NCBI GenBank assembly: GCA_021158425.1
Contig: JAGGUR010000119.1
Coordinates: 1-10,720 of the forward strand
Source of the DNA: Candidatus Cloacimonadota bacterium
GTDB lineage: Bacteria; Cloacimonadota; Cloacimonadia; JGIOTU-2
Reading direction: 5' to 3'
Length of the DNA stretch: 10,720 nucleotides
Shown here: piece by piece, positions 3,380 to 10,405 of the stretch
Layout of the letters: each line of letters begins with the position of its first letter
How positions within the stretch are numbered: position 1 is the stretch's first letter
Position numbers and translations under genes: made by a program
Notes under the pieces: model-generated
The model's input: only the letters and a program-made list of their open reading frames with translations
What the model was told of the DNA's origin: nothing
Database searches by the model: none

Positions 3380-4102
3380 ATGCTAAAAGAGATTGAGATT
3401 CTCTGTCAGTTACAGGTATTGGATAATAAAATCAGGGCGGCAAAAAAGGAAAAGGAAAGATTACCAAAAGAGATTGAAAAACTCGAAAACAAGTTTAATC
3501 TGGAACAAGAATCAGAGAAAAATATAAAGCAGAGACTTGAGCAGAACCTACAACGACAGAAGAAATTAGAACTTGATATTGCGGCTAATAATCAGGAGAT
3601 AAATAAGTATGAGAATCAACTGTTGATGGTAAAAACCAACAAAGAGTATAAAGCATTGAATTCTGAAATTACCCATCGTAAGGAAGGAAATAATAAAATT
3701 GAAGAGCAATTAATAGGATTGTTAGAAGCAGAATCTGCATTGGAAGAAGAAAAGAAACACATTCTTGAGTTATTGGCAAAAGATAAAAAAGCTTTAGAGA
3801 AAGAGAAAAAAAAGATAAATATTAAGATTGATGAATTAATCAAGGAGATAGCTCAACAAGAAAGAGAAAAAATAGAATTATCAAAGGAAATCCCTGATGT
3901 TTTATTTAGAAGGTATCAGCGTTTAATAGAGCATAAAGATGGAAAAGCGATAGCAACAATAGAAAATGGAGTATGTTCTGGTTGTCATTTTCGTGTTAGA
4001 CCCCAAATTATTGTTGAAGTTGCAAAGGGTGACTCAATAATTACTTGTGAAAATTGTTCCCGAATTTTAGTCGCACCCAGGAAATCTGCTAAGGGAGGTT
4101 GA
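3380..4102 (+). CDS. Coiled-coil protein with C4-type zinc ribbon (DUF164/CT398-like)
   Basis: A 240-residue protein. Residues about 8-175 are a long, highly charged Lys/Glu-rich coiled coil that probably folds back as a hairpin. Residues 198-227 form a C4 zinc ribbon with C199-x2-C202 and C223-x2-C226, preceded by RRYQRLIEHKDGKAIA, characteristic of the family. Relatives include Helicobacter HP0958 (FlgZ) and Chlamydia CT398, which act as adaptor proteins binding nucleic acid or other proteins. The role here is not known. A good ribosome binding site (AAGGAG) lies 5 nt before the ATG. The last two Gly codons and the stop fall inside repeat copy A, so the repeat supplies the protein's extreme C-terminus. 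From memory, members of this family often sit next to rnpB in other bacteria, as here; I could not verify that. Confidence 0.85.
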   Translation: MLKEIEILCQLQVLDNKIRAAKKEKERLPKEIEKLENKFNLEQESEKNIKQRLEQNLQRQKKLELDIAANNQEINKYENQLLMVKTNKEYKALNSEITHRKEGNNKIEEQLIGLLEAESALEEEKKHILELLAKDKKALEKEKKKINIKIDELIKEIAQQEREKIELSKEIPDVLFRRYQRLIEHKDGKAIATIENGVCSGCHFRVRPQIIVEVAKGDSIITCENCSRILVAPRKSAKGG

Positions 4103-4200
4103 ATAAGCTAAACTTTATTTCAATAACTCTAATATTGTTTAGTAACCCTTATTTATTCTTGTTAGTTTTCTTTATTCACCTGAACTTTATTCCACTCCCT
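4093..4200 (+). repeat. ~108-bp direct repeat flanking rnpB, copy A
   Basis: It is aligned without gaps at an offset of 690 bp to copy B (4783-4890). Only about 8 mismatches occur in the first 98 bp, with more divergence in the last 10. The ends are near-inverted (GGGAGGTTGAATAA at the left, TTATTCCACTCCCT at the right), giving a MITE-like outline. The interior contains a hairpin (CTAAAC with GTTTAG, and CAATA with TATTG) and several TTTATTC words. It overlaps the last codons of the zinc-ribbon gene and ends exactly where the RNase P RNA begins, so any proximal rnpB promoter must lie within it. Confidence 0.88.
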
Positions 4201-4782
4201 AAAGAGAATTAGACAATCGCCCAGCACCTATCTTTACTTAGTAAATTAGTTTAACACTTATATGTATTACGCAAAGATAGGTGCCGGGAGGAAAGTCCGA
4301 ACACCAGGAGCAAAATACTTCGTAACACGAAGTTCCCGTAAGGGAAAGATAGTGCCACAGAAAACAAACCGTCCCGATTTATCCTCCGAAGGGGGATTTA
4401 TCGGGATAAGGGTGAAAAGGTGGTGTAAGAGACCACCAGTTCTGATGGTGACATCAGAAGCTTGGTAAACCTTATTGGTGCAAGGTCAAATAGGAGAGAA
4501 TCTCCGAGATGTCTCGGGGAACGAATCGCTCCGTTCGTCATACTCTCGGGTAGACTGCAAAAATCAGTCATTGGAATGAACCGATGAATCCCGCACTTAT
4601 TTTTGAATAAATTAGAATATGAAGTATAGTAATTTGGTTATTACAAATATATCATATTATTGTTGTAAGTCATATTTCGGATTTAAAAATAGGTGCGGGA
4701 TGCGGTGACGCCTGATTCAGATAAATGATTGTCGTCCCGACTTCTTAAGTCGGGAAACAGAATTCGGCTTATTATTTTCTTT
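4201..4782 (+). ncRNA. rnpB: RNase P RNA, bacterial type A, enlarged (~582 nt)
   Basis: This is the catalytic RNA that cleaves 5' leaders from pre-tRNAs. The helices are legible. P1: AAAGAGAAT (4201) with ATTTTCTTT (4774). P2: GACAATC (4212) with GATTGTC (4727). P3: a perfect 12-bp stem, 4224-4235 with 4273-4284. P4 region: GAGGAAAGTCCGAA (4289) with ACAGAATTCGGCTT (4757-4770). P8, P9 and P12 follow; P13 is GGTGGT/ACCACC and P14 TTCTGAT/ATCAGAA. Conserved blocks ACAGAAAACAAACCG, GCAAGGTCAAATAGG and GGGTAGACTGC are present. P18 has a GUGA tetraloop and P19 is a 9-bp stem at 4735-4755. Typical bacterial RNAs are about 350-400 nt; here P18 holds a 134-nt insertion and P3 and P12 are long. The usual GGU that pairs with tRNA CCA is not visible in the P15-P17 loop (about 4493-4550). 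The short reading frame starting at 4262 is a chance ORF inside this RNA. The ends are inferred from P1 pairing. Confidence 0.93.
4568..4701 (+). other. 134-nt structured insertion in helix P18 of RNase P RNA
   Basis: Deleting these bases joins AATCAG (4562-4567) to GCGGTGACGCCTGATT (4702-4717), giving a perfect 9-bp P18 stem capped by a GUGA tetraloop. The insert folds on its own: a 7-bp hairpin (TCATTGG 4568-4574 with CCGATGA 4581-4587), then a 17-bp stem (4588-4604 with 4685-4701, one G-U pair) closing an AT-rich internal region. P18 would become a multi-helix junction, or the insert could be excised like an rRNA intervening sequence. Confidence 0.8.
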
Positions 4783-4890
4783 AGGAGGTGGAATAAGCTA
4801 AACTTTATTTCAATAAGTCTAATATTGTTTAGTAATCATTATTTATTCTTGTTACTTTTCTCTATTCAACTGAACTTTATTCTCAACCAC
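4783..4890 (+). repeat. ~108-bp direct repeat flanking rnpB, copy B
   Basis: It has the same orientation as copy A and starts at the base after the inferred 3' end of RNase P RNA. Left end AGGAGGTGGAATAA; right end TTATTCTCAACCACCT, running two bases past the aligned segment and nearly complementary to the left. No reading frame is conserved between the copies, which argues against coding function. It lies about 108 bp upstream of recJ, so it could carry a terminator for rnpB or a promoter for recJ, but neither is clear by eye. Confidence 0.87.
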
Positions 4891-9209: not shown

Positions 9210-9583
9210 TTAGAGAAATAAAATCAAAAACAAAGTATTATTACACAATGGGTGAGGTGTGCAATATAACTGGTCTTAAACCTCATGTGCTGCGATTTTG
9301 GGAAACACAATTCCCACAGTTACATCCTCGTAGAAAAGAACGCTCCAACAGACGATATACCTCAAAAGATATTGAAACAATCAAGAAAATAAAGTATCTC
9401 CTTTATGTAAAAGGTTTTAAAATTGAAGGTGCAAAAAAGAGCTTGAAAGGTTTTACTGACTTTGCCGAAATAGAAAAGCAAGAATCTCATCAACTTGATG
9501 AAGAACGGAAAAAGATTCTAAAAGATGTTCAAAAACAACTTAGAGAAATCAAAAAACTTACTGAAAAGTTAAAGGAAAAATAA
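9206..9583 (+). CDS. MerR-type DNA-binding regulator
   Basis: A 125-residue protein with an N-terminal winged helix-turn-helix of the MerR superfamily: YYTMGEVCNITGLKPHVLRF (12-31), then the WETQFPQLHP segment and the wing R-x-Y at 49-51 (NRRYTSKDIETI). The C-terminal third (about 88-125) is a charged coiled coil, probably for dimerisation. There is no effector-binding domain and no conserved metal-binding cysteine, so this is the short MerR type often found in operons with housekeeping genes. Its target is unknown. A Shine-Dalgarno-like GAGG lies within lnt, and ATGA overlap links it to lnt. The final codons (TEKLKEK and stop) are part of a sequence partly duplicated 139 bp downstream, in front of cas6. 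Confidence 0.88.
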   Translation: MIREIKSKTKYYYTMGEVCNITGLKPHVLRFWETQFPQLHPRRKERSNRRYTSKDIETIKKIKYLLYVKGFKIEGAKKSLKGFTDFAEIEKQESHQLDEERKKILKDVQKQLREIKKLTEKLKEK

Positions 9584-9605
9584 AAGATAAGCCAAGGAAA
9601 ATGAG
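9558..9605 (+). repeat. Imperfect ~48-bp direct repeat, copy 1 (MerR gene 3' end)
   Basis: It aligns gap-free with 9697-9744 at an offset of 139 bp, with about 8 mismatches that are all transitions. It includes the last codons and stop of the MerR gene and ends in an ATG (9601). That ATG starts a 36-codon frame ending at 9711; a second ATG at 9612 opens a 15-codon frame MPRKKSGRTIKYEEI. I do not recognise either peptide. Confidence 0.75.
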
Positions 9606-9685: not shown

Positions 9686-9696
9686 CTCCTCTGAAT

Positions 9697-9744
9697 TTAC
9701 TAAAAAGTTAAAGGGGAAATAAAAAATAGGCTAAAGAAAATGAA
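9697..9744 (+). repeat. Imperfect ~48-bp direct repeat, copy 2 (cas6 leader)
   Basis: The second copy of the segment described at 9558-9605. The ATG at its end (9740-9742) is the start codon of cas6, so the duplication has placed a copy of the MerR gene's tail directly in front of cas6. The rest of the 9584-9739 spacer holds the palindrome at 9662 and no other recognisable gene. Confidence 0.75.
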
Positions 9745-10405
9745 AATAAAGGTATTAGAAATTATCTTCCTTTCTACTCATCTGCGAAAAGCTGACATCC
9801 CAAAATTTCGTGGTTTCCTTGCCAATAAATATCCAAATTACAATCTTATTCATAATCATCTTGAAAATGGGAAACTCCGCTATTCTTACCCACAAATACA
9901 ATTTAAAACAATAAACGGACATCCAGCAATTATCGGTATAAAAGAAGGAATTGCGGTTCTGAAACAAGTTTTTATGGAATCGAATAACATAAAAATTGGA
10001 AATAAAGAAGAAACAATTTATGAGAAGTCAATCTCATTAAAAGAGGAAGAATTTGGTATAGCAGATAAATATATTGATTATCAATTCTTATCTCCGTGGA
10101 TGGCATTGAATCAGGAGAATTATGATAAGTATAAAGTAATGAATCGCTTTGAACAAATGCAATTTCTAAAACATATTCTCCGTGAAAATCTTAAGACAAT
10201 CTCCAAAGGATTTGATTATACAATCCCGGATATTGAAGAAGTAAAAGTTGATGGAAATTTCATAAAAAAAGAGGTGAATTTTAAGAACTTGAAAATGATT
10301 TGTTTTATCGGTTCTTTCTTGACTAACTTTTATCTTCCAGATTTTCTTGGCATTGGCAAGCAGGTAGCAAGAGGGTTTGGAATGGTAAAAAGGATTGATG
10401 ATTGA
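9740..10405 (+). CDS. cas6: CRISPR-associated endoribonuclease Cas6 (Cas6b-like)
   Basis: A 221-residue protein of Cas6 size. Cas6 cleaves the CRISPR precursor transcript within repeats to give mature guide RNAs. The N-terminal part begins KVLEIIF and carries FRGFLA (23-28), IHNHLENGKLRYSYPQIQFK (37-56), PAIIGIKEG (62-70); this pattern, including the HNH at 38-40, matches the Cas6b group as I remember it. The C-terminus has the family's glycine-rich loop, LGIGKQVARGFGMVKRI (203-219). H38 or H40 is the likely catalytic histidine by analogy; I cannot prove which. The ribosome binding site is weak. It is followed after 107 bp by a probable cas8b gene, the usual order for type I-B loci. No repeat-spacer array is in the window. 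Confidence 0.82.
   Translation: MKIKVLEIIFLSTHLRKADIPKFRGFLANKYPNYNLIHNHLENGKLRYSYPQIQFKTINGHPAIIGIKEGIAVLKQVFMESNNIKIGNKEETIYEKSISLKEEEFGIADKYIDYQFLSPWMALNQENYDKYKVMNRFEQMQFLKHILRENLKTISKGFDYTIPDIEEVKVDGNFIKKEVNFKNLKMICFIGSFLTNFYLPDFLGIGKQVARGFGMVKRIDD

Follow-up and report, generated by a model that had tools for sequence, protein, structure and literature searches.

Two side arms within helix P18 of the RNase P RNA of many Cloacimonadota: a likely four-way junction

The rnpB locus and the architecture of P18

The window examined here is a 10,720-nt stretch of DNA (contig JAGGUR010000119.1 of the Candidatus Cloacimonadota bacterium assembly GCA_021158425.1). Positions 4201-4786 of its forward strand encode a class A RNase P RNA that matches the whole Rfam model RF00010 (model positions 1-367) with 222.6 bits and an E-value of 1e-71, the gathering score of the model being 100 bits. 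The match includes P8. The largest stretch that the model leaves out, 142 nt, falls in P18, and a further insertion of ~45 nt falls in P3. A first-pass annotation of this DNA had proposed that positions 4568-4701 interrupt P18, and the alignment to RF00010 bears this out. The features of the gene are listed below.

4201..4786, + strand: class A RNase P RNA (rnpB), whole-model match to RF00010
4224..4284, + strand: extended P3 tip with ends GCACCTATCTTT / AAAGATAGGTGC similar to those of the arm 2 tip, from a search for shared ends
4562 with 4717, + strand: possible outer A-U pair at the base of P18
4563..4567, + strand: basal half of P18, 5' strand (AUCAG), placed by its constant distance to the GGGTAG anchor; all five pairs formed
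4568..4587, + strand: side arm 1, a 7-bp hairpin with an AAUGAA loop (4568-4574 with 4581-4587), from pairing, folding and covariation across the phylum
4588..4701, + strand: side arm 2, a 21-bp stem (4588-4608/4681-4701, G-U pairs included) with an AT-rich inner rod
4593..4696, + strand: window-specific palindromic tip of arm 2 with ends GCACTTATTTTT / AAAAATAGGTGC, missing at the same place in G001, G002 and G003
4702..4711, + strand: apical half of P18, GCG / GUGA tetraloop / CGC, at a fixed offset from the 3' anchor; 3/3 pairs and a GNRA loop
4712..4716, + strand: basal half of P18, 3' strand (CUGAU), pairing with 4563-4567

In the window P18 thus reads AUCAG, then 134 nt, then GCG-GUGA-CGC and CUGAU. 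The usual 8-bp helix with its GNRA loop is present as 5 + 3 bp across the junction, 4563-4567 and 4702-4704 being paired with 4709-4711 and 4712-4716, and the loop is GUGA. When 4568-4701 is removed the letters read AATCAGGCG/GTGA/CGCCTGATT, which agrees with the earlier claim of a restored 9-bp P18 (the 8 bp of the usual layout and the outer pair 4562-4717). The 7-bp hairpin described within the insert is likewise present. The long stem has 21 consecutive pairs, G-U included, rather than 17. The predicted fold of 4562-4718 (-55.3 kcal/mol, z -8.55, with 0/200 shuffles as good) is a four-way junction with zero unpaired bases that joins the P18 base, arm 1, arm 2 and the P18 cap. The expanded arm 2 folds with a z of -5.9.

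Several other elements were observed in the window. A 99-nt direct repeat, 93% identical between its copies, brackets rnpB at 4094-4192 and 4784-4882. It has inverted ends of approximately AGGGGGTGGAATA...TATTCCACCCCCT and, by eye, possible TAA/TTA target duplications, and it looks like a small transposable repeat. Related copies lie on contigs C96 and C105 of the same assembly (G000; L134, L135), and a search of the three other genomes of the genus gave no match at E <= 0.001. A tandem 8-nt repeat of the form AACTNGTR precedes the first long ORF (150-221), and a 50-nt direct repeat (84% identical, 9555-9604 and 9694-9743) lies at the end of a MerR-type gene and the start of cas6b. The Cas6b gene itself (9740-10405, Pfam Cas6b_N and Cas6b_C) is near the contig end and presumably belongs to a CRISPR-Cas locus. 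The Pfam scan, the PDB comparison of a neighbouring protein and the promoter/terminator scan had no bearing on P18.

Distribution and geometry of P18 across the Cloacimonadota

P18 was compared in a sample of 124 Cloacimonadota genomes, the window's own included and none further from it than the class. RF00010 matches 109 of these, and P18 was read in 108, as the match in G073 ends before P18. The positions of the basal strands, cap and loop were set by constant distances to anchors on either side, the shortest anchor pair being used; six genomes were re-anchored, and seven needed looser anchors or a manual reading. Of the 108 genomes, 65 carry extra sequence between base pairs 5 and 6 of the 8-bp P18 and 43 have a plain P18. 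The numbers with and without the insert in each family are 14/2 in f1 (the window's family), 4/39 in f3, 35/0 in f4, 1/0 in f5, 2/0 in f6, 3/0 in f7, 1/0 in f8, 1/0 in f9, 1/0 in f10, 0/1 in f11, 3/0 in f12 and 0/1 in f13. One assembly, G079, has two RNase P RNA loci (C124 and C60; L201 and L202), which may reflect a duplication or a mixed bin.

The geometry of the split helix is nearly constant. At least four of the five basal pairs are formed in 64 of the 65 carriers, all three apical pairs in 64 and a GNRA loop in 64, the window among them. The sole misfit, G007 (L044), has 3/5 basal pairs, 1/3 apical pairs and no GNRA loop at the expected place. Since the strands, cap and loop are kept at fixed offsets, the insertion point lies between pairs 5 and 6 and P18 keeps its length; the insert lies exactly at this site, with the apical 3 bp and the GNRA loop kept, in 64/65 carriers including the window. 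Plain P18s have the standard 26-nt layout in 39 of 43 genomes, the remaining four differing by 1-2 nt in length. All 39 standard ones have a GNRA loop and 34 have all eight pairs standard; G051 has a plain P18 without a GNRA loop in the layout used. In L001, a relative with a plain P18, the helix is drawn by the model with 8 bp closed by a 4-nt loop.

A 134-nt insertion peculiar to the window RNA is not supported, since the three other genomes of the genus (G001, G002 and G003) carry two hairpins at the same place, with both arms together measuring 39, 39 and 26 nt and arm 2 being an 18-nt hairpin (ATCCCGATACATCGGGAT in G001 and G003). What is peculiar to the window is the outermost part of arm 2, ~100 nt long; the two arms themselves are not. 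An assembly artefact in the window is scarcely credible: the assembly is 61.6% complete and in 173 contigs, but the same site is occupied in 64 further genomes and the expanded arm folds with a z of -5.9.

Cloacimonadota, a little-studied phylum, belong to the FCB group. A pattern scan for RNase P flanks with a long P18 gap, which is limited to RNAs having consensus flanks and an insert of ~12-42 nt, returned 37 stretches from a collection of 84,980 species. Twenty-eight are from Cloacimonadota, including the genera Tenebribacter and Zophobacter (placed there by taxonomy), and five of the other nine hold an RNase P RNA. P18 is a plain hairpin in L095 and L104 and a longer, unbranched one in L129 (by eye). 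An extra hairpin was seen by eye before P18 in L113 and L122 (Rhodocyclales).

Outside the phylum we read 80 RNase P RNAs from genomes of the same domain, picked among the score-sorted matches listed with long ones preferred; 49 were read by anchors, the gap being 25-29 nt, and the other 31 by eye, one of these after a false anchor. None of the 80, among the matches listed, has an insert inside P18. Two of the outside RNAs, L280 and L286, have a long insert directly before P18. The refuting case named in the first-pass annotation, helices shared by the RNase P RNAs of the clade, applies within the Cloacimonadota, as the genus mates show; as far as searched it applies in this phylum only, these helices being absent from the Rfam consensus and from the 80 outside RNAs.

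Pairing and covariation in the two arms

The arm analysis left a single choice to pairing, namely the boundary between arm 1 and arm 2. Both arms have at least 2 pairs, with no unpaired junction base, in 56 of the 65 carriers (window included) and both have at least 3 pairs in 50. The mean number of arm pairs is 8.1, compared with 4.4 in shuffles given the same freedom. Taken row by row, no more than 10 of 200 shuffles equalled the two-arm fit in 47 rows, and more than 10 did so in the other 18. Of the 64 carriers other than G007, 8 have one or both arms weak or missing, four f3 genomes among them. The four f3 genomes (L052, L198, L199 and L196) hold a P18 insert of another kind at this site.

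Two covariation tests were carried out. The first covered the phylum with 61 distinct rows (57 for the arms) and 2000 shuffles: all 15 tested pairs change on both sides and 13 were never reached, the exceptions being basal bp 3 (reached in 74 shuffles) and arm 2 bp 4 (in 25). The second used 41 chosen loci aligned with a covariance model; 37 of these are distinct and four are second records of the same genomes, and the window's family f1 was left out. In this alignment, which leans towards structure, 99.1% of 554 cells are paired and double changes occur in 14/15 pairs. Its covariation score is 0.607 compared with 0.235 when shuffled (0/500) and 0.034-0.095 when the partners are slid; slid partners are 22-41% paired. 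A measure of further pair types was matched by 119/500 shuffles. The shuffle tests are inflated by the relatedness of the sequences, which the slid control keeps. All four helices of the junction covary in both tests.

With the split helix kept, two hairpins lying flush at the break and four covarying helices, P18 of the carriers most likely forms a four-way junction in which the 8-bp strut and its GNRA loop are preserved. The earlier proposal that P18 had become a multi-way junction with its tetraloop kept is supported by the phylum-wide covariation and fixed geometry. It is very improbable that the extra sequence is instead an unstructured or single-hairpin extension: a single hairpin with 5-6 unpaired bases does fit three f3 genomes (G024, G064 and G065), but both arms covary and the slid controls fall from 99.1% to 22-41% paired.

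We also considered whether arm 2 is an intervening sequence, its 21-bp stem being cut by RNase III to leave a ribozyme of two base-paired fragments. The stem has 21 consecutive pairs, a length that RNase III could take, and rRNA intervening sequences look like such an arm. Arm 2 has only 4-7 pairs in 52 of the 65 carriers, which is too short for RNase III, and it covaries; the feature as such is therefore a structural arm, and we regard cleavage of the window's RNA in this way as improbable. Positions 4568-4701 are very probably the two side arms of a P18 built as a four-way junction, as in the RNase P RNAs of many Cloacimonadota.

The arm 2 tip of the window and its link to P3

Arm 2 is 114 nt long in the window, and the inserts of all other carriers among the 65 are at most 55 nt; the difference is the AT-rich palindrome of ~100 nt at its tip. 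For the 12-nt ends of this tip there are matches at the P3 tip, both in the same RNA and in a sister species. In the window's own genome there are five exact matches of GCACYTATYTTT, four of which are the strands of the P3 and arm 2 tips. The P3 tip of G001, 101 nt long, has the same ends with one mismatch to the pattern, and its first 19 nt agree with the arm 2 tip of the window at 18/19 positions. Rfam puts the 5' end of the G001 RNA inside this 101-nt extension (L141 1501-1601; 196.6 bits). The P3 and arm 2 tips resemble each other at their ends only; between the ends their similarity does not exceed that of shuffles.

The ~100-nt palindrome would have been added to arm 2 in the lineage of the window, most simply by copying between two hairpin tips (P3 and arm 2) of one gene, and we infer such copying within rnpB as its source. 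It is possible, though less likely, that both tips are instead copies of a small and rare mobile palindromic element. The similar 12-nt ends around unlike interiors favour this, as does the presence of another short repeat with inverted ends, which has four matches in the genome, two of them bracketing rnpB. On the other side, exact paired ends at the P3 spacing occur at 1 place in 124 genomes of the class and at the arm 2 spacing at 1 place in 17 family genomes, in both cases rnpB, and no target-site duplication is evident at arm 2. With two mismatches per end allowed, a search of 30 loci gave further pairs in L140 (a 24-nt hairpin), L151 and L164, which are chance-like. Positions 4560-4720, searched against the window's genome, gave the self match and 21 weak matches (best E 0.02), in an assembly of 61.6% completeness and 173 contigs from which copies could be missing. 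A dispersed mobile element with several copies is not supported, as exact paired ends were found only in rnpB in the genomes searched.

Gain and loss of the arms

A tree was made from the rest of the RNA with 104 of the 108 rows (G019, G027, G119 and G074 were dropped because the end anchor was not found). The state with or without the arms changes at least seven times on this tree, in which gain and loss are not told apart and deep branches are weak. In the window's family the two plain genomes, G005 and G008, sit among carriers, and G005 groups with the carrier G003 with 99/92 support. A model built on seven f4 sequences and biased towards sequence (R1) was run on 386 relatives; it has hits in 49 of them at E <= 1e-5, and every one of these belongs to the window's class. 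R1 recovers only 2/17 genomes of the window's own family at E <= 0.01, and its failures are therefore no proof of absence.

A broader reading is that the site between base pairs 5 and 6 is tolerated in such a way that the module has been repeatedly gained and lost with the strut undisturbed, the arms serving a clade-specific partner or contact and the tips of P3 and arm 2 exchanging sequence. We think this combination unlikely.

Proposed arrangement of the junction and its meaning

P18 docks in P8 by an A-minor contact and in this way joins the two domains of the RNA, according to the parts of PMC12974513 consulted. Disruption of the P8/P18 contact is reported to affect the activity of the E. 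coli and Thermus RNAs in the portion of PMC5839562 consulted. We propose that the basal and apical halves of P18 are stacked coaxially across the fully paired four-way junction; the GNRA loop would therefore stay at its normal distance and dock in P8. Arms 1 and 2 would stack on each other and point into solvent, and the branched RNA would work as an ordinary class A RNase P. Judged from sequence, a junction that leaves all 8 bp of P18 and its GNRA loop in place would fit selection for docking in P8. A scan for covariation between the P18 loop (L18) and P8 was noisy, as the search pattern often matched something other than P8. The likeliest role of the arms is a peripheral one, in which they are tolerated and stabilise the junction; they may possibly have a binding partner.

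RNase P RNA, the ribozyme that trims tRNAs, is a reference case for the growth of large RNAs by added branches. In the present case the new branch sits within a short helix, the length and loop of which are important for connecting the two domains, and both features are kept, apparently by the use of a fully paired junction. There are natural pairs with and without the arms in one family (for example, G003 with and G005 without), and the effect on folding, docking and tRNA cleavage is therefore directly testable. As 65 of the 108 genomes read carry the arms, the standard RNase P model misses the P18 of much of the phylum.

Comparison with known systems

Bacterial rRNA intervening sequences are long imperfect hairpins that replace a hairpin tip. 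The arm 2 of the window is likewise a long hairpin at a tip, but its counterparts in related genomes are short and occupy a conserved position. Rickettsia palindromic elements insert a palindrome with common ends at hairpin tips in structural RNA genes; the window tip differs from them in having no exact paired copies outside rnpB in the genomes searched.

Changes of P18 are known in other lineages. RNase P RNAs without P18 have been reported (PMC4227106, consulted in part), and diverged forms in CPR bacteria lack P12, P13, P14 and P18, lack most of P15, or have an extended P15 (PMC8172020, consulted in part). The part of PMC4919922 consulted holds nothing on branches of P18. The main text of PMC12974513 describes P18 and P18.0 and does not contain the string 'cloaci', and a literature search on repeats in rnpB gave nothing relevant. 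As no report of a branch inside P18 was found in the literature searched, which was seen in part and covered few subscription journals, the branched P18 is, as far as searched, a new structural variant of a known ribozyme.

Another element to compare is ES2.1.1 (P18.0), the helix once called P15.1 that lies before P18. In the parts of PMC12974513 consulted it is a lineage-specific branch of the Bacilli-Mollicute lineage attached to the P18 element. The arms described here were not assigned to this type B element, as they lie inside P18, bounded by its own pairs; the Cloacimonadota branch thus differs from ES2.1.1 in its position, in its form as two arms and in leaving the length of P18 unchanged. 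With the class A RNase P RNA of RF00010 the window RNA shares the whole-model match, the 8-bp P18 with its GNRA loop and P8. The consensus P18 of that model is an unbranched 8-bp hairpin with a 4-nt loop, whereas P18 of the window has two side arms at base pairs 5/6.
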